A stretch of 37,523 bases of DNA, taken from positions 1 to 37,523 of the forward strand of contig SCQT01000023.1 of assembly GCA_004322015.1 (NCBI GenBank), read 5' to 3'. The stretch is from Chitinophagaceae bacterium (GTDB taxonomy: Bacteria > Bacteroidota > Bacteroidia > Chitinophagales > Chitinophagaceae). A program made the position numbers and the translations under genes. The notes under the pieces were generated by a model. The model was not told the DNA's origin, searched no databases, and was given only the letters and a program-made list of their open reading frames with translations. Below, piece by piece: positions 2,639-35,789 of this stretch (positions within the stretch are counted from its first letter, which is position 1; each line of letters opens with the position of its first letter).

Positions 2639-2711
2639 GCGGAAGTAGCTCAGTTGGTAGAGCATCAGCTTCCCAAGCTGAGGGTCGCGGGTTCGAATCC
2701 CGTTTTCCGCT
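2639..2711 (+). tRNA. tRNA-Gly (anticodon CCC)
   Basis: A complete cloverleaf can be drawn. The acceptor stem GCGGAAG (2639-2645) pairs with TTTCCGC (2704-2710) with one G-U pair. The anticodon stem TCAGC/GCTGA encloses the loop TTCCCAA with anticodon CCC. The T stem GCGGG/CCCGT encloses TTCGAAT. The discriminator base is T, as usual for bacterial glycine tRNAs. CCA is not encoded. The anticodon reads GGG codons. Two 109-bp units that duplicate its 3' half follow directly. Confidence 0.96.
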
Positions 2712-2929
2712 CGAAGAGAAGTTATTTTTTAAGAGATAAGTTGAGAGTCGCGGGCCATGACGTTGCGGAGCAAGTCATGGTGCTGACTAAGACGTCAGCA
2801 TTCGAATCCCGTTTTCCGCTCGAAGAGAAGTTATTTTTTAAGAGATAAGTTGAGAGTCGCGGGCCATGACGTTGCGGAGCAAGTCATGGTGCTGACTAAG
2901 ACGTCAGCATTTGAATCCCGTTTTCCGCT
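2712..2929 (+). repeat. Two tandem 109-bp tRNA-tail repeats with inserted double hairpin
   Basis: Units 2712-2820 and 2821-2929 are identical except for one C/T difference (2803 versus 2912). Each begins with a 25-base A-rich spacer. Next comes a copy of the tRNA-Gly from the 3' side of the anticodon loop to the T stem (2737-2754 matches 2674-2691 at 15 of 18 bases), and each unit ends with the tRNA T loop and 3' acceptor strand. Between T stem and T loop, at 2755-2800 and 2864-2909, sits a 46-base insert made of two hairpins. One is CCATGAC/GTCATGG with an inner TTGC/GCAA, the other TGCTGAC/GTCAGCA. No 5' half of a tRNA is present, so these are not tRNA genes. Confidence 0.9.
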
Positions 2930-3050
2930 CGAAACAGGAAATTGAGTAACTTAATCAACGGTAATTCACTCTTTATATGGTGAAGACAAGCCTTGTTTAT
3001 TCCTCCGAAAGATTTTATCTTTAAGTTTTTATCATTTATCTTAAATTACG

Positions 3051-13788: not shown

Positions 13789-14475
13789 ATGAAAAAATTA
13801 ATCTTTTTTTTGGGTACTGTATTATTCTGCGTTGGAGTATCCCTGCATTATTCTTCCGCGCAAGCCGCTCATCCGCCTTTCTGGGATGAGATACAGCATT
13901 TCCGGCATGAGGATAGCCTGCAGCTTCCACCCCGGCATGCGATCCTATTTATCGGCAGCTCTTCTTTCAGAAAGTGGACAGATATGCCACAATATTTTCC
14001 TCATCATACTGTTATCAACAGAGGTTTCGGCGGTTCCACACTCCCCGATGTAATTCGTTATGCCCAATATATTATTTTTCCTTATGCTCCGAAACAAATA
14101 GTTATTTATTGCGGAGACAATGATGCCGCTTCCTCTTCGGAAATTACTGCCGATAGCATATTAAACAGATTTAAGACCTTATATTTTTTGATCAGGAAAC
14201 ATCTGCCGGGAACGGAAGTCACCTACGTGTCCATCAAGCCCAGTCCCAGTCGCGAGCAGTTTTTTCCGGTAATGCAATTGGCTAACTGGAAAATTCACCA
14301 GTTTCTGAAGAAACAACACCATACCTCTTTTGTGGATGTATGGCATCTCATGCTCGACGATCAGGGGCAACCTGTTAAAAGTTTATTCGGACCGGACATG
14401 TTGCATATGAATAAAACGGGATACGAGATTTGGGCTAAAGCGATAAAACCGGATCTCATGAAAGACAAAAGATAA
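13789..14475 (+). CDS. Secreted SGNH/GDSL-family hydrolase
   Basis: A 228-residue predicted esterase or acetylhydrolase with a cleavable signal peptide (MKKLIFFLGTVLFCVGVSLH, then YSSAQA). SGNH blocks are visible: block I ILFIGSSSFRKW with Ser58 as likely nucleophile, block II INRGFGGSTLPD, block III IYCGDNDAA with Asn111, and block V GPDMLHMNKTGYEIW with Asp203 and His206. The family includes platelet-activating-factor acetylhydrolase-like and carbohydrate acetylesterase members; substrate is unknown. The GH3 gene follows 129 bases downstream, so removal of acetyl groups from a glycan is plausible but inferred. The final codons and stop lie inside a heptamer repeat array (14461-14495). Confidence 0.9.
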   Translation: MKKLIFFLGTVLFCVGVSLHYSSAQAAHPPFWDEIQHFRHEDSLQLPPRHAILFIGSSSFRKWTDMPQYFPHHTVINRGFGGSTLPDVIRYAQYIIFPYAPKQIVIYCGDNDAASSSEITADSILNRFKTLYFLIRKHLPGTEVTYVSIKPSPSREQFFPVMQLANWKIHQFLKKQHHTSFVDVWHLMLDDQGQPVKSLFGPDMLHMNKTGYEIWAKAIKPDLMKDKR

Positions 14476-14524
14476 AAGCGGAAAGATAAAAGAAGGGTTC
14501 GATTGTTTGACTGTTTGATTGTTT
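14461..14524 (+). repeat. Degenerate heptamer array followed by octamer array
   Basis: Five consecutive 7-mers with core AAAG (AAAGACA, AAAGATA, AAAGCGG, AAAGATA, AAAGAAG) occupy 14461-14495 and include the stop codon of the SGNH hydrolase. After a 5-base spacer, three 8-mers with core GAYTGTTT occupy 14501-14524. The pattern belongs to the same class as the arrays near 22954, 30652 and 32128. Confidence 0.75.
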
Positions 14525-14544
14525 GAGATTTGGAATTTAAAATA

Positions 14545-14604: not shown

Positions 14605-16902
14605 ATGCGAAGAATTAATATTCCGGTTATTGTAGTATTATTAGCATTAACCGCCATGCAAGTGTCAGCGCAAAAGGTAACTAAGGCGTCTTCCACTGTA
14701 AAAATGGATGCATTTATCAACGCACTGATAAAGAAAATGACGTTAGAAGAAAAAATCGGGCAGTTGAACTTACTGACCAGTGATATGGCGGTGACGGGTC
14801 CGGTTATGCGCAAAGGTTATATGGAAGATATCAAAGCAGGCCGTTGCGGCAATATATTCAATGCTTTTACACCTGATTATGTACGCAAGCTGCAACAAGT
14901 TGCGGTGGATTCAACCCGCCTGCATATTCCTTTGATGTTTGGTTTTGATGTAATACACGGACATAAAACCATATTTCCGGTTCCGCTGGCTATGGCATCC
15001 ACATGGGATACGGCAGCTATCGAGTACGCAGCCCGTTTGTCCGCTGATGAAGCTTCGGCTGACGGATTAGATTGGGTATATTCTCCCATGGTGGATATAG
15101 CCCGTGATCCGAGATGGGGCAGGGTAGTGGAAGGTGCAGGTGAAGATCCGTTTTTAGGGAGCGCCATAGCGCGCGCTTACGTGCATGGCTACCAGGGAAC
15201 TAACCTGGACACCGATAGCACTGTAATGGCATGTGTGAAGCATTTTGCACTTTATGGGGCAGTAGAAGCCGGAAGGGAATATAACGCCGTGGATATGGGT
15301 CCCCGCCGCATGTTCCAGTTTTATCTGCCTACCTATAAAGCAGCTATAGATGCGGGTGCAGGTTCGGTAATGACTTCTTTTAATACCATCAACGGGGTTC
15401 CGGCTACTGCCGATAAATGGTTATTAACTGATTTATTAAGAAAAAAATGGGGTTTTAAAGGCTTTGTAGTGACTGATTATGGCTCTATGGCCGAATTAAT
15501 ACCGCATGGCGTTGCTGCGGATAAAGCACAGGCTGCCAACTTGGCTATGCATGCAGGGGTGGATATGGATATGATGGGAATGGCCTATTCCGGTACACTG
15601 AAAGAACTAGTTAAAGAAGGCAAGGTGAGCATAGCAGAAATTGACAATGCCGTTCGCCATGTGCTGGAAGCAAAATACAAATTAGGATTATTTAAGAACC
15701 CCTATTTACGCATGAATGATGACCGGGCCAAAGAAGAGATCATGAGTCCGGATAAATTGGTTTTCGCGAGGAAAATTGCCAGGGAATCTATTGTGTTGTT
15801 GAAAAATGACCATGATTTATTGCCCCTGAAAAAAACAGGAACTATTGCTGTCATTGGTCCTTTGGCAGACGATCAGCGGGATATGATCGGACCCTGGTCA
15901 GGCGCCGGCGACTGGCATAAGGCGGTCAGTATTTTACAGGGAATTAAAAGTGCGGCAGGTAATCAGGCAGTTATTTTATATTCCAAAGGAGCCAATATTA
16001 CAGAAGATACTTCTATGCTTCGCCAGTTGAACAGCAATGGCGGTGATATCGTGCCATCAGATAAAAGTCCTGATGAATTAATTAAAGAAGCAGTCGAAAC
16101 AGCCAACAAAGCGGACGTAGTGGTGATGTGCCTTGGAGAATCACAGGGGATGACGGGGGAGGCTGCCAGCCGTGCAGATATCCGTATCCCTGCATGCCAA
16201 CGCCGGTTGTTACGGGCTGTTTATAAAACTAAAAAGCCAGTCGTACTGGTTTTATCCAACGGCCGTCCGCTGGTCTTAACATGGGAAAATGAACATATCC
16301 ATTCAATCCTTGAAACATGGTTTCTGGGAACGGAAGCCGGTAATGCCATTGCAGACATATTATTCGGCGAGTATGATCCTTCAGGAAAAATCACGATGTC
16401 GTTTCCTTATGCAGTTGGCCAAATCCCGGTTTATTATAATGAGCTGAATACCGGACGTCCGCGTAATCCCATGCAAAAATACACCTCTAAATATTTAGAT
16501 ATCCCGAATGCACCCGTATATCCCTTCGGGTATGGATTAAGCTATACTCATTTTACGTTTAGCAATCTTACACTGGATAAAAATATCATGAGGCCGGAGA
16601 CGCCCTTGCATATTTCTGTAACCTTAACGAATGATGGCAATGATGCCGGCTCCGAAACGGCCCAGCTTTATATTCGCGATATGGTAGCCAGCGTGGCACA
16701 GCCGGTGAAGGAACTCAAGGGATTTCAAAAAGTATTTTTGAAAAAAGGAGAAAGTAAAACACTTCATTTCACTCTCACTGCAAATGATTTGAAATTTTAT
16801 GATCAGCAGGGAAAATGGGTCTATGAACCGGGAGCATTTAAAGTATTTGTCGGCGGCAATTCGAGAGATGTGCTGGAAAGGGATTTCAGGCTGGAGAAGT
16901 AG
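14605..16902 (+). CDS. bglX: Glycoside hydrolase family 3 beta-glucosidase
   Basis: Predicted periplasmic GH3 beta-glucosidase of 765 residues, removing terminal glucose or related units from oligosaccharides. The ATG at 14605 gives the signal peptide MRRINIPVIVVLLALTAMQ with cleavage near VSAQ; a TTG at 14584 is less likely. The N-terminal TIM barrel carries DWVYSPMVDIARDPRWGR, the acid/base-region signature CVKHFALYGA (KHF at 212-214), and the nucleophile motif GFVVTDYGSM with Asp291. The alpha/beta sandwich domain follows from about 385. The C-terminal fibronectin III-like domain starts near 650 (ETAQLYIRDMVASVAQPVKE). It is convergent with the CocE hydrolase, only 2 bases apart. Confidence 0.96.
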   Translation: MRRINIPVIVVLLALTAMQVSAQKVTKASSTVKMDAFINALIKKMTLEEKIGQLNLLTSDMAVTGPVMRKGYMEDIKAGRCGNIFNAFTPDYVRKLQQVAVDSTRLHIPLMFGFDVIHGHKTIFPVPLAMASTWDTAAIEYAARLSADEASADGLDWVYSPMVDIARDPRWGRVVEGAGEDPFLGSAIARAYVHGYQGTNLDTDSTVMACVKHFALYGAVEAGREYNAVDMGPRRMFQFYLPTYKAAIDAGAGSVMTSFNTINGVPATADKWLLTDLLRKKWGFKGFVVTDYGSMAELIPHGVAADKAQAANLAMHAGVDMDMMGMAYSGTLKELVKEGKVSIAEIDNAVRHVLEAKYKLGLFKNPYLRMNDDRAKEEIMSPDKLVFARKIARESIVLLKNDHDLLPLKKTGTIAVIGPLADDQRDMIGPWSGAGDWHKAVSILQGIKSAAGNQAVILYSKGANITEDTSMLRQLNSNGGDIVPSDKSPDELIKEAVETANKADVVVMCLGESQGMTGEAASRADIRIPACQRRLLRAVYKTKKPVVLVLSNGRPLVLTWENEHIHSILETWFLGTEAGNAIADILFGEYDPSGKITMSFPYAVGQIPVYYNELNTGRPRNPMQKYTSKYLDIPNAPVYPFGYGLSYTHFTFSNLTLDKNIMRPETPLHISVTLTNDGNDAGSETAQLYIRDMVASVAQPVKELKGFQKVFLKKGESKTLHFTLTANDLKFYDQQGKWVYEPGAFKVFVGGNSRDVLERDFRLEK

Positions 16903-22953: not shown

Positions 22954-23044
22954 GTTTGAGGTTTCGGGTTTGAGGTTTGGAGTTTCGAGTTTGGCAATGT
23001 GTGGTTTGAGTTATGCATTAAACTCCAAACTCCAAACCCGAAAC
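22954..23044. terminator. Heptamer inverted-repeat array, probable bidirectional terminator
   Basis: Six tandem 7-mers with core GTTT (GTTTGAG, GTTTCGG, GTTTGAG, GTTTGGA, GTTTCGA, GTTTGGC) cover 22954-22995. After a 24-base spacer the opposite orientation follows (AAACTCC twice, AAACCCG, AAAC) at 23020-23044. The 25-base arms 22961-22985 and 23020-23044 pair at 23 of 25 positions. The structure lies between the convergent acnA and porin-like genes and occupies the whole gap, so a two-way terminator is the natural reading. There is no clean U-tract. Confidence 0.7.
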
Positions 23045-23048
23045 AGAT

Positions 23049-23797: not shown

Positions 23798-24445
23798 TCA
23801 TTTCCCGCTTTGCAAATAAGGGGATTGAGCGAAGATCGCCTGAACTTCCGACGGATAATTACTAGGATTAAGCACTTGTTCGCCCTTTAAGGTAGCATTC
23901 CAGACAGCATCTAATTGCTTGTCCTGGCCTGCATTCTTCAAATCAATTAAATCAATAGTCATATAATTTTCATTAGTCTGATAGAGCCCGAAAACAGGCG
24001 GGAAATAATAGCTGTATCCGCCATAACCCCAGTAATTAGGATCCCAGTAACCGGGAGTATTCCACCAGTCGTAAGGATATTGGACAATATTCGTATAAGT
24101 ATTGGCGATATAAGTTACGTTAATTCCCAGATCAGGATTTTGATTTTTGTTGACCAACACATATCCCCGATGTTCCATCTGAACGGTTATCAGTTGCAGC
24201 AATTGCGCATCGCCCGCGGTCAGTTCCATGCCAGCCTGCTGATTATTCTGTATAACAGCTACAGAATCTACAATGCTGAAAGTCTTGTAAGATAAAAAAT
24301 TGGCCGTACTGTCACGGTTAGTGATATATATTCTGGTTTCTTCATTACTCAGGTTATTCAATGCATTTTTGCCGCAACTGCTGAAAAAAAGAACTGCTGC
24401 AGGCAACAATAATGCGGGTAATGTTAAACGTGATGATATTTTCAT
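23798..24445 (-). CDS. DUF4136-type lipoprotein
   Basis: A 215-residue predicted lipoprotein with signal MKISSRLTLPALLLPAAVLF and a lipobox ending FSSCG (Cys24). The body resembles DUF4136 (PF13590): RDSTANFLSYKTFSIVDSVA near the N-terminus, LLQLITVQMEHRGYVLVN, then NPDLGINVTYIANTYTNI followed by a Tyr/Trp/Gly-rich stretch (about 120-150), and DLKNAGQDKQLDAVWNATLKG towards the C-terminus. The family has no established function. It is the first gene of a two-gene operon with the beta-barrel protein, which suggests an outer-membrane pair. Confidence 0.85.
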   Translation of the reverse strand: MKISSRLTLPALLLPAAVLFFSSCGKNALNNLSNEETRIYITNRDSTANFLSYKTFSIVDSVAVIQNNQQAGMELTAGDAQLLQLITVQMEHRGYVLVNKNQNPDLGINVTYIANTYTNIVQYPYDWWNTPGYWDPNYWGYGGYSYYFPPVFGLYQTNENYMTIDLIDLKNAGQDKQLDAVWNATLKGEQVLNPSNYPSEVQAIFAQSPYLQSGK

Positions 24446-24646
24446 GATTGAATGAATTTATTGATCTGTAGATAATTATCATGTATGTGATAAACGAATA
24501 TTTAACAGCATTATTGGCCACAAGTTCAATGCCGCACGCCGGATTTGCATGTAATAATTTGTTAATTTTAAATGATACGCAGACATGCAAAATAAAGGTA
24601 TTTTCGAAAAAACCGGATTTCATTGCAACCATATCTCAAATATATT

Positions 24647-24676: not shown

Positions 24677-24706
24677 AGCGTTCATCTTCAATAAAACAAT
24701 ACAAAA

Positions 24707-25588
24707 ATGAAAAATTTACAAACGAGAATGCAGCGAAATCTTTTATTTCTAATCACAGGTTTCCTAACCTTAACACAGCTTATGGGTATAAACTATAATG
24801 CAAACGCACAAAAGCTACATCCTGATGACTGGAAATTAGGTATTCAGGCCTGGACTTTTCACCTGAATACTTTTGCAGAAGCTTTGGATAAAATAAATGA
24901 ATGCGGAGTAAAATATGTGGAAGCCTTCCCGCCTCAGAAAATCGGCGCAGGAATAGCGGGAACCATGGACTATCACATGGATGCAGCTACCAGAGAAAAA
25001 GTGTTGGCACTGTTGCATAGCAAAGGGATTAAAATGGTTTCCTATGGTGTGGTAAACCCTGAAACGGATAGCGACTGGGTACAACTGTTCAAATTTGCGA
25101 AAGCCATGGGCTTGAAGAATATAGTATCTGAACCGCAGCAGAGTCAGATCCCTTTTATTTCCAAACTGTCTAATGAATATAAAATTAATGTGGCAATCCA
25201 TGACCATGCGAGGCCTACCCGGTATTGGAATCCCGATATCGTGCTCACCGCTATCAAAGGCGCCAGCCCGCGTATCGGCTCTTGTGCAGATATAGGACAT
25301 TGGTTGGAATCGGGACTGGATCCGGTTGAATGCATGAAAAAGCTAAAAGGGCATATCATCGAGTTTCATTTGAAAGATGAAAATATGAAAGGCACCGGCC
25401 CCGGGTTTCATGACGTGCCTCTGGGAGAGGGTGTCATTGATATGGCAGGGATCATGAAAGAAATGAAACGCCAGCATTTTAAAGGCTATTGCTTTATTGA
25501 ATATGAATATCATTTTGAAAATAATGTACCGGATGTAAAAACATGTGTGAAGTATTTCAGGGATGAGAAAGAAAAACTATTGAAGTGA
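24707..25588 (+). CDS. Exported sugar phosphate isomerase/epimerase-like TIM-barrel protein
   Basis: A 293-residue protein of the xylose isomerase-like TIM-barrel superfamily (PF01261), many of whose members isomerise or epimerise sugars or process inositols. A hydrophobic segment (about 11-27) ending near NANAQ indicates export to the periplasm, common for Bacteroidota members. Family motifs are LGIQAWTFHLNTFAEALDKI, YVEAFPPQKIG, INVAIHDHARP (metal-ligand His region), GSCADIGHWLESGLDPVECM, GHIIEFHLKDEN and PLGEGVIDMAGIMKEMK. Metal-binding acidic and His residues appear present. The substrate is unknown. The sulfatase gene follows 291 bases later on the same strand, but co-transcription is uncertain. 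Confidence 0.9.
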   Translation: MKNLQTRMQRNLLFLITGFLTLTQLMGINYNANAQKLHPDDWKLGIQAWTFHLNTFAEALDKINECGVKYVEAFPPQKIGAGIAGTMDYHMDAATREKVLALLHSKGIKMVSYGVVNPETDSDWVQLFKFAKAMGLKNIVSEPQQSQIPFISKLSNEYKINVAIHDHARPTRYWNPDIVLTAIKGASPRIGSCADIGHWLESGLDPVECMKKLKGHIIEFHLKDENMKGTGPGFHDVPLGEGVIDMAGIMKEMKRQHFKGYCFIEYEYHFENNVPDVKTCVKYFRDEKEKLLK

Positions 25589-25866: not shown

Positions 25867-25906
25867 AAACAATCAAGCAATGAAACCATCAAACAGTCGA
25901 ACCATG
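25867..25906 (+). repeat. Octamer array overlapping the sulfatase start region
   Basis: Four consecutive 8-mers related to AAACARTC (25867-25874, 25875-25882, 25883-25890, 25891-25898) run into GAACCATG (25899-25906). On the minus strand the units read GATTGTTT-like, the same octamer as at 14501-14524. The first ATG of the sulfatase frame (25880) is created by a degenerate base inside the second unit. Confidence 0.65.
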
Positions 25907-30091: not shown

Positions 30092-30652
30092 ATGGCTTCC
30101 GGCGATCTTGAAATATGGCTCTGGAATGAGATCCGTTACGGTAACGAGAGAGCGTTATACCAGCTTTATATCTCGGGATATGATACTTTACTTCGTTATG
30201 GACTCCATGCTTCAGGCGACAGAGTGAAAGCGATGGATTGTATCAATGAGGTGTTTACGGAAATATGGACAAAAAGAGACCGACTGCCTGATGTAAAAGA
30301 GGTGCGGAGTTATGTATTCACTATTTACAAAAGAAAATTATTTCATCTCATCCATCATAAACGCCTTGTGTATTCTTTTCCCGATGAGAACGTTTTTCCC
30401 TCATCAGAAAATGAAAGCTCTTATGAGGATATGCTGATCGCTTTACAATCAGAAGAAGAAAAGAAAAAACGTATCAGACTTGCATTAGTAAAACTTACCT
30501 CCCGGCAAAAAGAATTGATACGCATGCGTTATTTTGACGAAATGTCCCTGGACGAAATTGCCGGCAAATTAAATCTTTCGCTGCGTACCATATACAATAC
30601 TATTCATTCTGCCATAGCTACCCTGAGGAAGGAAATGGAGGGGAAGAGGTAG
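30092..30652 (+). CDS. ECF RNA polymerase sigma factor (Bacteroidota FecI-like type)
   Basis: A 186-residue sigma-70 family factor of the extracytoplasmic-function class. Region 2 covers about residues 10-80 with LYQLYISGYDTLLRYGLHAS, DCINEVFTEIWTKRD and SYVFTIYKRKLFHLIHHKR. Region 4 covers about 125-182 with LTSRQKELIRMRYFDEMSLD, EIAGKLNLSLRTIYN and TIHSAIATLRKEM. It is followed 333 bases later by a FecR anti-sigma factor and then by an STN-type SusC receptor, the standard order for ligand-induced surface signalling. It probably drives susCD transcription. Its stop codon abuts a GGCAGT-type repeat array. Confidence 0.95.
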   Translation: MASGDLEIWLWNEIRYGNERALYQLYISGYDTLLRYGLHASGDRVKAMDCINEVFTEIWTKRDRLPDVKEVRSYVFTIYKRKLFHLIHHKRLVYSFPDENVFPSSENESSYEDMLIALQSEEEKKKRIRLALVKLTSRQKELIRMRYFDEMSLDEIAGKLNLSLRTIYNTIHSAIATLRKEMEGKR

Positions 30653-30985: not shown

Positions 30986-32143
30986 ATGGACCTGGAGTAC
31001 TATGTACCCGAAGATTTTGTTTCAGATGAGTCATTCGTCAATTATTGCTTTCAAAGTGATCCGCAGGATGTATCTTTTTGGGAACAGTGGCTGGCAGATC
31101 ACCCGGCAAGGAAAGAAATAGCCGGGAAGGCACGCGAATGGGTCTTTTACACAAGTATCAAATCTACTCCCGAAGAAAAGCAACGGCAATGGGAAAAGTT
31201 GGAAGGCTCATTAAAAGGTACATCTTTAGCTGCCGGTGATCCGCATCGCAGGGAGTTACGCACTATTTCGAGAACAGGAGTATGGGCTGCAATATTATTG
31301 GTAATGGTGGCAGGGGTGATGGCATTTTACTGGACTTTGGGCAAAAAAGTAAGTAACGGCATCGCTTCCTCTTCTGATTTCACCCAATATATCACTTCTG
31401 CCGGACAAAGGCATACCATGGTGTTGAGTGATGGTACGCAGGTATGGCTGAATGCAGACAGCAAGCTGGTTTGCAGCGACAGCTTTCAAACAGGGAAAGA
31501 ACGGGAAGTGACCCTGAGCGGAGAAGCTTATTTTAAAGTGACCCCCAATCCTGCAAGTCCATTCGTTATCCATACCCAAAAATTAGATGTCAGGGTCCTG
31601 GGAACAGAACTAAACATAGAGGCTTACCCGGGAGAAAATAAAGAAGTGGCGGCGCTGATCAAAGGCAGTATTCAGGTAAGTCTTCATGCAGACCCCGATA
31701 GAAGAATTATTTTAAAACCTCATGAGAAGGCCGTTGTGGTGAATAACTTATTACTCATGCCTCGGGGCATAGTACCTGATAACCCTGATAAAAAAGAGAA
31801 AAGGTTAGAGACACCTAATAATTTGATTATAGCCCCGTTGACCACTGATCCTCTGTTGGATAGCGGCACGGTAGAAACGGCATGGATGGAAGGAAAACTG
31901 GTATTTAGAAATGAATCTTTCAGCCAACTGGCACATCAAATGGAACGTTGGTATGACGTGGACATTCATTTCTCTGACAGCAGTATGGAAAAATACCGGT
32001 TTACGGGTATTTTTTCCACGGAAACTATTGATCAGGCATTACAGGCACTGCAGTTGACCTCACCTTCCGATCCGTTCAGTTATAAGATTAATGGGAAAGA
32101 TGTTTTAATAGATCGGAATAAAAATGAAAAAGCGAAAAGCTGA
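30986..32143 (+). CDS. FecR-family anti-sigma factor
   Basis: A 385-residue inner-membrane anti-sigma factor. The N-terminal cytoplasmic part (1-95), with FWEQWLADHPARKEIAGKAR, should bind the sigma factor. One membrane helix spans about 98-117. The periplasmic FecR domain (about 130-235) carries TSAGQRHTMVLSDGTQVWLN, REVTLSGEAYFKVTPNPASP and DVRVLGTELNIEAYPGE. The C-terminal DUF4974 domain (about 308-378) contains LAHQMERWYDVDIHFSDSSM and FSTETIDQALQALQLTS and is expected to contact the STN domain of SusC. It forms the second element of the sigma-FecR-SusC cascade. The final codons (KAKS and stop) lie within a heptamer repeat array. Confidence 0.96.
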   Translation: MDLEYYVPEDFVSDESFVNYCFQSDPQDVSFWEQWLADHPARKEIAGKAREWVFYTSIKSTPEEKQRQWEKLEGSLKGTSLAAGDPHRRELRTISRTGVWAAILLVMVAGVMAFYWTLGKKVSNGIASSSDFTQYITSAGQRHTMVLSDGTQVWLNADSKLVCSDSFQTGKEREVTLSGEAYFKVTPNPASPFVIHTQKLDVRVLGTELNIEAYPGENKEVAALIKGSIQVSLHADPDRRIILKPHEKAVVVNNLLLMPRGIVPDNPDKKEKRLETPNNLIIAPLTTDPLLDSGTVETAWMEGKLVFRNESFSQLAHQMERWYDVDIHFSDSSMEKYRFTGIFSTETIDQALQALQLTSPSDPFSYKINGKDVLIDRNKNEKAKS

Positions 32144-32250
32144 ATGCTAAAAGCAAAAGGCCAAAAGCTGAAAGCCGAAGATAGAGCCGGAAGAAAATAT
32201 TAGAAACGGATCTAAGCTTTACGCTTTGTGCTTTATGCTTTACGCTTTAT
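32128..32250. terminator. Paired heptamer arrays in inverted orientation, probable fecR terminator
   Basis: Seven tandem 7-mers related to AAAAGCN (AAAAGCG, AAAAGCT, GAATGCT, AAAAGCA, AAAGGCC, AAAAGCT, GAAAGCC) fill 32128-32176 and include the fecR stop codon. After 39 bases, five 7-mers of the opposite orientation (GCTTTAC, GCTTTGT, GCTTTAT, GCTTTAC, GCTTTAT) fill 32216-32250. The arms can pair imperfectly over about 30 bases. Position suggests transcription termination or attenuation between fecR and susC; that role is inferred. Confidence 0.65.
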
Positions 32251-32319: not shown

Positions 32320-32348
32320 AACGGGAAATGTTTGCGACACATTCCCCG
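32320..32348 (+). promoter_or_regulatory. Hairpin in the susC 5' leader
   Basis: ACGGGAAATGT (32320-32330) and ACATTCCCCGT (32338-32348) form an 11-bp stem with one G-U or mismatched pair and a 7-base loop, 78 bases before the susC start. No T-tract follows, so it is not a simple terminator. It may be an operator or an mRNA-level control element for susC; this is inference. Confidence 0.55.
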
Positions 32349-32426: not shown

Positions 32427-35400
32427 ATGGAAAAAACTATATCAACTATCCGCAGCGGCGGGTGGGAAAAAACTTTCAAAGCCTTGCTTTTTATGAAATT
32501 AACTGTACTCTTTTTATTTCTTGGACTTGTTCAGGGATTCGGGAAGGCTTATTCACAAAATACCGAAGTGACCCTAAGCCTTCATAATGTCCGTTTGAGC
32601 AAGGCATTATCCGTTATTGAGCGGGAGAGCCATTTCCGCTTTTTATATAACAATAACGAAGTAAAAGGCACACAAAAAGTAAGCGTGCGAGCCACTAAAG
32701 AGCCCGTTCCGCAACTGCTGGACCGTTTACTGGCTCACACGGATTTAACCTATAAAATCCTTGCCAATAACCTCATCGTTATTGCACCGCATCCGGCTTC
32801 CATAGCTTTACAAAAACTAACAGGCAGCGTAACGGACAGCACGGGACAACCCCTCGTGGGCGTCACTATTAAAGTAAAAGGTACTTCACTCGGAACGGTT
32901 ACGGATGCCCAGGGAAATTTTTCGTTGGAAGTGCCCGACAATGCCATATTGGTGGTTTCCTACATTGGATACAATACCAAAGAAGTGCCCGTGAATGGGG
33001 AGACCACATTGCACATTACATTATCCGCGTCTTCCACTCTATTGAATCAAATTGTAGTGGTGGGATATGGCACACAACGGAAATTAGATGTGACCGGATC
33101 GGTAGCCGTGGTGAATGGTGATGATATTTCCAGACAATCCTCTCAAAATGCCATCAGCTCTTTACAAGGTAAAGTAGCCGGCGTACAGATCACTAACGCC
33201 GGTGCCCCCGGATCTTCTCCTTCAATCAGGATAAGGGGATTAGGCACTATTTATGGAGATCCTAATCCATTGTATGTCGTGGATGGTGTGTGGTTCAGCG
33301 ATATCAGCTTTTTAAACCCTGCCGATATTAAAAGCATCAGTATTTTGAAAGATGCCTCTGCAGAATCTATTTATGGCATACGGGCAGCAAATGGAGTAGT
33401 GTTGATAACGACCAATAAAGGCACTGCAGGAGAGACGACAACCGTAAATTATAATGGTTATGCCGGCTGGCAACATGTAACCAACCTGGTAAAAATGGCC
33501 AATGGTAATGAATATGCTAACTTAATAAATGAGAAAAGTATTTATAGTGGCGGTAATACAATCCTTCCCAATCCCAACCAATACGGGGAAGGCACAGACT
33601 GGTATCGCCAGATATTGCGTGATGCTTTTGTGACGAATCATCAGATATCGGTTAGCGGAGGAAGTGATAAATCCACCTATAACTTCTCATTGGGGTATTT
33701 GGATCAGGATGGCATCGTGAAGACAAATAATTATAAAAGGATCACGGCTGATCTGGAAAATGATATTCAGATATTTAAAAGCCTGAAAGTGGGATATAAT
33801 GTGGTCGCATCGGGAAGCAATTCTAGGGATATCCCCGGAGGTATTTTTCATCAGTTGTTCGGAGCACCTCCCATTGTGCCGGTAAGATATAAGGATGGTT
33901 CCTATGGAGATCCCGGAGATTTTGCCTTGGGGCAAGCCGTTTCTAATCCCGAAGTAACTCTTGACTTTTTCAACCAAAAGTCAAAGAATTACCGGGTCAG
34001 CGGAAATGTACATGGTGATTTGACCTTTTTGAAACATTTTACTTTTCACACGAGTGTGGGAGGTGAGTATGGGGAAGGTGAGGTAAGGAGCTATGTACCG
34101 GAATATCAGGCTACCTCCACTCAGAATAACATAACCAGTGTACTTACTATTTCACGGGCTGAAACACGTAACTGGATTGTGGAAAATACCCTGACTTACA
34201 AAAATAGTTTTGGGGATCACGATCTTACAGTCTTAGTCGGGCAGGGGGCGCAACAATATAAATCATATTCACTTACAGGGACAGCTTTTAACGTTCCGGG
34301 GAATACAAGCGATCAAATGTATTTGAAATTGGCCAGTGTAACAAATCAGGAGGGAGACACGACAATCCGTAACGGGCAACCATATAATGTGACAGATAAC
34401 GGCGATCTTTCTACCATTGCCTCCTATTTTGGAAGAGTGAACTATTCATTTAAACAAACCTATCTTTTAACCGCCTCTCTGCGCGCGGATGGATCTTCTA
34501 AGTTTACAGGGAATCAACGTTGGGGATATTTTCCTGCTATCGGTCTGGGTTGGATAATCAGCAATGAAGCTTTTATGCAAAATCAGCATTTATTCAATAC
34601 TTTAAAATTAAGAGGAAGCTGGGGCAAGATAGGAAATGCTTCCGTTCCTTCCAATTTGTCTATTCTTACGGTAGATCAGAGCCCGGGACTAACAGCCATA
34701 TTTGGACAGCCGGGCGTACCCTATACAGGTGCAAGTATTACCAGCATTGTGCCTCCGACCACCTATTGGGAAAGAGGAGTGGGTACAGATGTAGGATTAG
34801 AGGCTGCCTTATTCAACAACAGGCTGAACTTGGTTGCAGATTTTTATAATAAAAAAACAGAAAAAGCCATATTTGCCATTCCCATACTGGGATCCCTGGG
34901 TACCAGCGGGTCCACGATCATAGGTAATCAGGCTGACTTACAAAACAGGGGATTTGAATTGACGCTATCATGGGATCAGACCGTCAATAAAGATCTTAGT
35001 TTTCACATTAGCGCCAACGGCTCCCTGAATAATAACGAAGTATTATCTGTGTCCACCGGTAAGAATCCTATTTATGGCGGCGGGGCAGGAGCTACGGGAG
35101 GACAATTAACTACCCGTACTGTAGTGGGTCAGCCCATTGGTGAATTTTATGGTTATGAAGTAACAGGCATTTTCCAGAACCAGGATCAGATCACCAAATC
35201 TGCTCAGGTTAATACAGGAGCTCATCCAGGTGATTTTATTTATAAGGATGTCAACGGTGATGGAGTGATAAGCGGAAAAGACCGTGTACCTCTTGGAAAT
35301 CCCAATCCGAAATATTTATATGGCATCAATACAAGCATTACTTACAAACAATTCGATCTGATGCTTGACTTCCAGGGAGTGGCGGATGTATCTATCTATA

Positions 35401-35789
35401 ACGCCAATAAAGGTTTACGCTACGGGAATGAAAATTACACCCTGGATTTCTATGATCACCGCTGGCATGGAGATGGGACTTCCAACACCTATCCTTCGGC
35501 TAATATCGGGGGTGATCAAAACTATATCCCTAATTCATGGTACGTAGAAAGCGGGAGCTATTTCAGGATCAGGAATATGCAATTGGGATATAATGTTCCT
35601 TCTTCTTTAACCAACCGGTGGCATATCAAGCACCTGAGGATTTATGCCAATGCTCAGAATGCATTTAATTTCTTTAAATACACTGGATTTACACCGGAGG
35701 TTGGGGGAACTCCAACTAATGCGGGTATTGATACCAACACTTATCCCCTGTATGCTACCTATAATTTTGGTGTGAATCTTAGTTTTTAA
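32427..35789 (+). CDS. SusC/RagA TonB-dependent receptor with STN signalling domain
   Basis: A 1120-residue outer-membrane transducer-type receptor for glycan or other nutrient import. An extended signal peptide ends near residue 43 (AYSQ). The STN domain (about 47-120: VRLSKALSVIERESHFRFLY, LTYKILANNLIVIA) signals to FecR. A carboxypeptidase-D-regulatory-like domain follows (about 130-200: VTDSTGQPLVGVTIKVKGTS, DAQGNFSLEVPD). The SusC-specific plug begins at LNQIVVVGYGTQRKLDVTGS (207-226) and contains GVQITNAGAPGSSPSIRIRG. The barrel ends in TYPLYATYNFGVNLSF with a terminal Phe. It sits directly before susD, with sigma and anti-sigma genes upstream. Ligand unknown. Confidence 0.97.
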   Translation: MEKTISTIRSGGWEKTFKALLFMKLTVLFLFLGLVQGFGKAYSQNTEVTLSLHNVRLSKALSVIERESHFRFLYNNNEVKGTQKVSVRATKEPVPQLLDRLLAHTDLTYKILANNLIVIAPHPASIALQKLTGSVTDSTGQPLVGVTIKVKGTSLGTVTDAQGNFSLEVPDNAILVVSYIGYNTKEVPVNGETTLHITLSASSTLLNQIVVVGYGTQRKLDVTGSVAVVNGDDISRQSSQNAISSLQGKVAGVQITNAGAPGSSPSIRIRGLGTIYGDPNPLYVVDGVWFSDISFLNPADIKSISILKDASAESIYGIRAANGVVLITTNKGTAGETTTVNYNGYAGWQHVTNLVKMANGNEYANLINEKSIYSGGNTILPNPNQYGEGTDWYRQILRDAFVTNHQISVSGGSDKSTYNFSLGYLDQDGIVKTNNYKRITADLENDIQIFKSLKVGYNVVASGSNSRDIPGGIFHQLFGAPPIVPVRYKDGSYGDPGDFALGQAVSNPEVTLDFFNQKSKNYRVSGNVHGDLTFLKHFTFHTSVGGEYGEGEVRSYVPEYQATSTQNNITSVLTISRAETRNWIVENTLTYKNSFGDHDLTVLVGQGAQQYKSYSLTGTAFNVPGNTSDQMYLKLASVTNQEGDTTIRNGQPYNVTDNGDLSTIASYFGRVNYSFKQTYLLTASLRADGSSKFTGNQRWGYFPAIGLGWIISNEAFMQNQHLFNTLKLRGSWGKIGNASVPSNLSILTVDQSPGLTAIFGQPGVPYTGASITSIVPPTTYWERGVGTDVGLEAALFNNRLNLVADFYNKKTEKAIFAIPILGSLGTSGSTIIGNQADLQNRGFELTLSWDQTVNKDLSFHISANGSLNNNEVLSVSTGKNPIYGGGAGATGGQLTTRTVVGQPIGEFYGYEVTGIFQNQDQITKSAQVNTGAHPGDFIYKDVNGDGVISGKDRVPLGNPNPKYLYGINTSITYKQFDLMLDFQGVADVSIYNANKGLRYGNENYTLDFYDHRWHGDGTSNTYPSANIGGDQNYIPNSWYVESGSYFRIRNMQLGYNVPSSLTNRWHIKHLRIYANAQNAFNFFKYTGFTPEVGGTPTNAGIDTNTYPLYATYNFGVNLSF

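Follow-up and report, generated by a model that had tools for sequence, protein, structure and literature searches.

In the genome of a Chitinophagaceae bacterium, of which a 37,523-nucleotide stretch (the window) was the starting point, and in some related genomes, many gaps between genes carry arrays of degenerate 7- or 8-base units. These arrays often face an inverted partner in the same gap, can keep their period while the core changes between species at fixed sites, and can form paired units that are present in some species and absent from others. The replacement of the letters under a constant layout is the surprising part. We tentatively favour a replication process at the DNA level, in which slippage in steps of 7–8 bases is combined with template switching from arm to arm, and some of the arms are used as terminator stems.

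The fecR–susC gap and the other arrays of the window

The gap between fecR and a susC-like gene holds the focal pair. Reading out the units confirmed what the initial annotation had described, namely seven AAAAGCN-type units across the fecR stop, a 39-base gap, and five inverted GCTTTNN units, all of them exactly 7 bases long in both arms. The features of the gap are as follows:

30986–32143, + strand: fecR (FecR and FecR_C domains, Pfam), its 3' end within the left array
32128–32176, + strand: left array of seven AAAAGCN-type heptamers, which gives fecR its last codons and stop (units read out; lag-7 matches at least 20/28)
32177–32215, no strand: spacer of 39 bases between the arms (from the sequence)
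32216–32250, + strand: right array of five GCTTTNN heptamers, inverted to the left array (units read out; inverted score 18, direct score 6)
32427–35789, + strand: susC-like TonB-dependent receptor (STN, CarboxypepD_reg, and Plug domains, Pfam)

The left units are AAAAGCG, AAAAGCT, GAATGCT, AAAAGCA, AAAGGCC, AAAAGCT, and GAAAGCC, and the right ones GCTTTAC, GCTTTGT, GCTTTAT, GCTTTAC, and GCTTTAT; local alignment of the two arms gave the inverted and direct scores listed above. The fecR ORF terminates within the left array (...NEKAKS*), with its stop codon at 32141–32143. The right arm is followed by ACAATATCAA, which bears on a terminator U-run in the sense orientation, and the cores AAAGC/GCTTT contain zero GGG tracts. 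Upstream of fecR lies a sigma-factor-like gene (30092–30652) with a clear region 4 and a region 2 under the Pfam cut-off, and a SusD-like gene (Pfam) comes after the receptor gene; such SusC/SusD genes point to Bacteroidota as the phylum.

An array was called at a threshold of at least 19/28 matches at a given lag. The 19 gaps of the window contained five lag-7 and three lag-8 arrays, where 200 dinucleotide-shuffled versions gave 0.02 and 0.07 on average. The arrays beyond the focal pair, and their partners, are:

14461–14495, + strand: AAAAGNN heptamers across the end of the 13789–14475 ORF (lag-7 19/28)
14494–14534, + strand: TGTTTGAN octamers (lag-8 21/28)
22954–22993, + strand: GTTTSRR heptamers immediately 3' of the stop of an aconitase gene (lag-7 22/28; TRF; Pfam)
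23016–23045, + strand: CTCCAAA-type partner array, inverted to the 22954 array, before the end of the convergent gene (inverted score 21, direct score 9)
24439–24464, no strand: weak inverted partner for the 24688–24713 octamers (score 14, the lowest counted)
24688–24713, + strand: weak octamer array in a divergent gap (lag-8 at least 19/28)
25867–25902, + strand: AAACNATC octamers overlapping the called start of a sulfatase ORF (lag-8 20/28; Pfam)

Six companion arrays had been proposed. Four of them hold, at 14461 and 22954 with period 7 and at 14501 (within the 14494–14534 array) and 25867 with period 8, while those at 30652 (16/28) and 30853 (17/28) are too weak and do not stand out; when the threshold was lowered to 17/28, the gaps sampled from the window's genome contained 31 lag-7 arrays, compared to 3.7 in shuffles. 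The partner at 23016–23045 was absent from the initial annotation. Together with the 22954 array it occupies nearly the whole convergent gap, and the two fold at −40 kcal/mol (z −4.87). No inverted partner at a score of at least 14 was found for the octamers at 14494–14534. The true start of the sulfatase is probably further downstream, because the octamers at 25867–25902 cross the called one.

Elsewhere in the window (2639–2933), a tandem repeat with a 109-base unit (2.2 copies, 99%) comes directly after a tRNA gene. The repeat unit starts within the 3' end of the tRNA, so pieces of the tRNA end recur downstream, and the region looks like the relic of an attachment site.

Comparison with a genome of the same genus (G001), whose flanking genes match those of the window at 67–73%, disclosed a different filling of the same gap. 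In G001, AGCAGTA-type heptamers start about 14 bases past the stop codon of fecR, whereas in the window that codon is itself covered by AAAAGCN units. An octamer array on AACAATTN comes after the G001 heptamers; the maxima are 21/28 at lag 7 and 22/28 at lag 8. The two G001 arrays do not look mutually inverted, unlike the window pair. The idea that the period can be kept while the sequence is replaced is thus upheld at the focal gap in G001, as it is in the orthologous gaps of genus g75 (below); loss of the period in sister species, which would have spoken against it, was not seen at the focal gap, since the G001 gap retains heptamers. A palindrome upstream of susC (CGGGAAATGTTTGCGACACATTCCCCG, 32322–32348) is kept in G001 while the adjacent arrays are replaced.

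Abundance, inverted pairing, and placement

In an untargeted 358,517-bp sample of the window's genome (G000), the gaps contained 20 lag-7 and 9 lag-8 arrays, compared to a mean of 0.0 in five shuffles. The remaining lags from 4 to 13 gave 0–2 arrays each, and across lags 4–24 none exceeded three besides 7, 8, and the unit multiples (14, 16, 21, and 24); coding DNA of the same sample held one lag-7 and no lag-8 array. Gaps were denser in arrays in another genome of the family, G027 (76 lag-7, 21 lag-8, and 9 lag-9), and two species of genus g75 had 21, 5, and 2, respectively, with shuffles giving 0.0–0.7 in both sets. Throughout, genes were taken as the longest ORFs, so gap types and edges are approximate. 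Arrays far beyond shuffles in the window and in three genome sets agree with the initial view of a recurring intergenic system, and composition-matched shuffles do not yield arrays as often.

Across the phylum the distribution is uneven. Nineteen further genomes, a non-random draw with several picked for GCTTT matches, were sampled with a single 20-kb stretch each and together gave 29 lag-7 and 10 lag-8 arrays; G010 alone had 11 and 4, and 10 of the 19 were without lag-7 arrays. A four-core GCTTT pattern is present in 16/296 genomes of the phylum, and a 50-kb stretch of E. coli K-12 contained zero arrays.

The cores are many (AAAGC, GTTTSRR, CATTSAC, AACTTAN, TTTTGAC, ATCAGNN, and others); a single genome has different cores at different loci, and each locus changes its core separately. 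Near-exact tandem copies, the hallmark of long simple sequence repeats, are rare, with only 4/249 arrays at least 0.9 identical over 28 columns. Mismatches cluster at few positions of the unit, and in each of six sets 0/300 permutations reached the observed value. Selection on helical spacing had been suggested on the grounds that three 7-mers equal two turns. This suggestion was rejected because periods 7, 8, and 9 coexist in the G027 gaps, and one orthologous g75 gap has period 8 in some species and 7 in others.

To count pairing, every pair of arrays in a gap was aligned locally in direct and inverted orientation, with a score of at least 14 counted as a match; the set comprised the untargeted G000 sample, G027, and the two g75 genomes, and pairs from the same gap are non-independent. 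Arrays sharing one gap matched inverted in 36/73 pairs and direct in 8/73, which bears out the inverted pairing. Arrays on either side of one gene matched inverted in 5/78 pairs, the rate of random pairs (5.4–6.9%), and a gene-centred, cassette-like pairing was rejected on this count. Inverted pairing belongs to the gap itself (within-gap versus across-gene, Fisher p = 1e-9). In 11 G000 stretches picked for GCTTT matches and kept outside the 73 pairs, 0/5 pairs were inverted and 3/5 direct (score at least 12).

The arms often lie near the gap edges (median distances of 5 and 19.5 bases), with a loop of 19–406 bases between them. Identity within an arm exceeded that between arms in 31/35 pairs. 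An arm in G027 scored 17.5 with its own partner and 13.7 with substitutes of the same family, 28% of which scored equally high. Overlap with stop codons exceeded random placement in G000 (13 versus 7.1), G027 (52 versus 19.9), and g75 (15 versus 7.7). The proposed enrichment within 20 bases of stop codons was clear in G027 (69 versus 40.9) and weaker in G000 (18 versus 14.4) and g75 (20 versus 15.3). In G027, the purine-rich strand points outward from both ORF edges (45:5 at 5' and 39:11 at 3' edges), while in G000 it does so at 3' edges only (9:2) and is reversed at 5' edges (1:8).

The loops were also inspected. A promoter enclosed by the arms, with the arms as a general insulator, was seen by eye at one locus (TATAATCTTTG) and rejected as a general rule, promoter-like TAnnTTTG being present in just 1/30 loops elsewhere. 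Two G027 gaps (L078, about 15786–15806; L079, about 15000–15025) have a short REP-like palindrome with GAGCGGAGTCGAAG in their loops.

Core replacement in orthologous gaps of genus g75

Four orthologous gaps (c26, c155, c156, and a fourth) were read in up to 30 g75 species (loci L275–L334). All four have arrays in G313, which was the reason for choosing three of them; 3/30 loci at c155 and 2/30 at the fourth gap were left out for poorly aligned flanks or gaps beyond the length limits. A species was counted as having the layout only if an inverted arm fell within an array of period 7 or 8. Array-built inverted arms were found in 10/30 species at c26, 14/27 at c155, 22/30 at c156, and 16/28 at the fourth gap, and the core changes between species at three of the four.

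The four gaps differ in how they vary. At c26, 11/30 species have the paired unit, with cores AAAGC, AAGTC/T, or AAAGG, and the other 19 have a 13–18-base site without it. At c156, the arms beat all 20 shuffles in 27/30 species and the cores are AAAGG, AAAGC, AAGTC/T, AAGGA, and CGAAT; at the fourth gap, they did so in 21/27, with several cores by reading. At c155, the arms beat all shuffles in 18/26 species, one core (GTTCATRG type) is common to most of them, and several of the inverted repeats are other hairpins and not heptads. A species' own arms scored above the mean of species-swapped arms in 29/30 cases at c156, 23/26 at c155, 24/27 at the fourth gap, and 6/11 at c26. These shuffle and swap tests omit gaps of 60 bases or less (19/30 at c26, 1/27 at c155, and 1/28 at the fourth gap).

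Core labels, which are motif counts, were placed on trees of the flanking genes. The c156 label required 13 changes on the 30-species tree (minimum 4; shuffled mean 14.2), and all c26 labels together required 8 (minimum 3; shuffled 10.2). Cores also differ between loci within one species: G401 has AAGTC/T at c26 and AAAGC at c156, and G313 has AAAGC and AAAGG. In 69 gaps shared by two g75 species, arrays were present in 14 and 9 gaps, and in both species in 3 (1.8 expected); the rank correlation over the same gaps was 0.48, to which gap length may contribute.

Several loci stood out individually. At c155, L312 and L315 have pure long arrays, (GGTGAGT)n and an 8-base GGGTCATT, which replace the left arm only and have no matching partner arm; these are likely fresh slippage expansions. 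In L322, the same gap is occupied by several almost identical copies of a unit that includes the left arm and measures very roughly 80 bases. The c26 hairpin site is followed by about 200 bases (L256, 11290–11504) with strong conservation between G313 and G267; the remaining orthologous loci have a stretch of comparable length at c26, and the L256 stretch gave zero matches to Rfam families.

Explanations and related systems

One possible, though doubtful, explanation is that the arms are selected as RNA hairpins, as terminator stems or as mRNA-end or insulator stems, with the pairing under selection and the letters free. Inverted pairs were found in 8/53 convergent gaps compared to 18/278 co-directional ones, a difference in the direction that such stems predict, as is the excess of stop-codon overlap. 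Divergent gaps, however, were not poorer in pairs than co-directional ones (8/104). Array folds are stronger than those of shuffles (mean z of −2.9, −3.94, and −5.23), and the c156 arms persist under core change. Terminator-like hairpins at c156 were found in the sense orientation in 18/30 species and in antisense in 3/30 (shuffled sense, 8.0), and since this hairpin is kept in most species, selection is suggested there. The sense bias is small at c155 (6/23 versus 4; shuffled sense, 0.7) and absent at c26 (2 versus 5 antisense of 11), where the unit is moreover missing in 19/30 species. Folding of five convergent G027 gaps showed inner hairpins between the arms, and since several of these have the T-run of an ordinary terminator, several of the loops already contain terminator-like hairpins; the scarcity of TAnnTTTG in the loops likewise speaks against this explanation.

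Selection for pairing at the transcript level should make arm mismatches favour G-U over A-C on the sense strand. Their total G-U:A-C ratio was 149:146, a figure that omits convergent (11:10) and divergent (20:6) gaps, where the sense strand is undefined, and double-counts some G313 gaps. The same genomes also have terminator-like hairpins that lie outside arrays, and these gave 49:20 (p = 0.002). The total is made up of 30:41 from co-directional gaps of the three genome sets and 14:10, 36:39, 44:32, and 25:24 from the four g75 loci, with c156 alone (44:32) not clearly different from terminators. We take this as a mixed picture of a mostly DNA-level phenomenon with terminator use in places.

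Rather unlikely, in our view, is a class of element whose definition lies in its grammar instead of its words, in which the 7–8-base period, the facing complementary arms, and the gene-edge placement are kept for function or by dedicated rewriting, and sister species differ in the letters at one locus after another.

Small mobile elements of REP/RAYT, MITE, or foldback type with heptamer arrays as their ends could produce the clean presence or absence of the paired unit at one site, and same-family arrays are indeed dispersed in G027, with six Y1 transposase matches in G000. Such an origin is nevertheless very unlikely. Cores differ at one site, and no shared inner sequence was seen among the loops, which were compared unsystematically. 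Y1 counts do not track the arrays either: G030 has four matches and zero arrays in 20 kb, and the array-dense G027 has only weak ones (best 36.9 bits). REP/RAYT in particular was rejected, as neither a shared palindrome consensus nor a tracking Y1 transposase was found. G000 and G027 are without an RVT_1 match, which counts against mobile elements and led us to discard a reverse transcriptase as the writer.

Equally improbable are plain slippage microsatellites that decay by point mutation, with incidental inverted pairing. According to PMC4679880, the survey by Mrazek (2007) found that, in most genomes, no class of long simple repeat is commoner than heptanucleotides. Adjacent units were more alike than units at a distance of three in G027 (0.59 versus 0.516) and g75 (0.572 versus 0.531), an excess to which an edge bias may contribute, and the resemblance between neighbouring heptamers in G000 was non-significant. 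The excess of inverted over direct pairing within gaps already disfavours plain slippage, and the joint change of the cores of both arms and the confinement of mismatches to few unit positions also oppose it. The least probable explanation is that the arrays are binding sites for a protein, such as a cold-shock protein, that recognises a specific DNA or RNA sequence and covers 7 bases (binding of CspB to heptamer repeats is discussed in PMC4679880). It would account for the fixed period, the core conserved within an array, and the gene-edge placement, but the many cores per genome, their replacement locus by locus between sister species, and the period 8 in the same genomes speak against it.

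A process that rewrites the units, which the initial annotation had raised as an option, fits best. In the DNA-level process that we tentatively favour, gene gaps would be filled by inverted arrays of fast turnover, and a short inverted repeat between two genes would grow by 7 (less often 8) bases into facing tandem arrays, which would extend to the gene edges. The period kept under replaced letters, the pairing specific to the gap, and the arm mismatches without a G-U excess speak for it. Slippage with this step would create the tandem units and make those of one arm alike. Hairpin copying, in which replication switches template from one arm to the other, would transfer a new core and explain its presence in both; rough complementarity of the arms would thereby outlast the replacement of the core between species. 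The letters would need no protein reader, and a hairpin behind a stop codon could act as a terminator stem. From these patterns we infer that slippage and template switching make the arrays and that no protein reads their specific sequence.

Some observations do not fit the DNA-level process neatly, among them the length of the loops, the scarcity of pure arrays, and the fact that c156 persists. Many of the loops are longer than usual for template switching. The modest result of the arm swap at c26, the shared core at c155, the partnerless arrays of L312 and L315, and the moderate partner advantage in G027 count against it as well. In the parts of PMC8794818 and PMC8604942 available, template switching can create hairpins and homogenise the arms of inverted repeats; the arms there are changed together by copying, as here, and tandem 7-base arrays are not described in those parts. 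For the step of the repeat, a polymerase contact length was proposed by Mrazek, according to the accessible text of PMC4679880.

Three further candidates were rejected. Loss of the hairpin nuclease SbcD as a permissive factor showed no link, the SbcD counts being 4/16 for array-positive and 93/280 for array-negative genomes (296 genomes, one core pattern as a noisy proxy for arrays). Local copying along the array was set aside, since adjacent units exceeded permuted order but adjacency had been used in detection, and a less biased version was weaker. Avoidance of identical neighbours in GCTTTNN arrays gave no general rule (1 versus 4.0 expected in G027; 19 versus 11.7 in G000).

The closest described system consists of the degenerate intergenic heptamers of Xanthomonas and Nostoc, which in the accessible text of Rehm et al. 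(2015, PMC4692102) are of one G-rich type (GGGANTN / GGGGA(C/T)T), form 70 and 75 convergent repeat sites, and have no known function. Like the arrays studied here, they are degenerate, intergenic, near ORF edges, and arranged in convergent inverted sites, and they lie between the same genes in related species with varying length and sequence; the intergenic period of 7 and the convergent inverted pairs are shared. They differ in having one G-quadruplex-forming motif type per genome, where our genomes have many cores, and our data add that one core can give way to another at a single site between species. Their purine-rich strand runs outward from both ORF edges, a trait for which G027 and G000 gave the differing counts stated above. 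At least four GGG or CCC tracts, the capacity for a G-quadruplex, were found in only 4/300 arrays (3/53, 1/194, and 0/53). As arrays lacking GGG share much of this layout, G-quadruplex formation is unlikely as its general reason. The remark in the initial annotation that similar repeats have no described function agrees with this literature, although degenerate inverted intergenic heptamers as such had already been described there.

Other heptamers are more distant. TAACTGA direct repeats occur in Beggiatoaceae, Cyanobacteria, and five Bacteroidetes (MacGregor 2015, PMC4679880); in the portion available they are intergenic too, with some sets split by related 7-mers and some near stop codons, but have one fixed sequence, mostly forward before start codons, with one inverted repeat in the main genome. 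TAACTGA doublets were absent from the window and from the G000, G027, and g75 stretches, and the focal array lies over a stop codon instead. Geobacter metallireducens has four-fold heptanucleotide elements and tandem 7–8-mer predicted regulator sites; in the accessible part of PMC2700814 they share the short tandem heptamers or octamers, some classes being drawn as facing strands, and differ in a fixed consensus per class. Heptamer-derived satellites are mentioned in bacteria in the available text of PMC6749651 (Subirana and Messeguer). Among the literature matches listed, no title dealt with inverted heptamers of many cores in Bacteroidota, or with cores being replaced at fixed sites; subscription journals were thinly covered in these matches, which makes them weak evidence of absence. 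Core replacement at fixed sites seems to be new, and degenerate inverted heptamers themselves are known.

Conservation searches that align letters are blind to an element whose layout is kept and whose letters are replaced. If the cause is mutational, the gaps would preserve a natural record of how slippage and template switching act, and the patchy occurrence across species should point to a permissive replication or repair gene. If the cause is selective, a sequence-free class of bacterial intergenic structure would have been overlooked.
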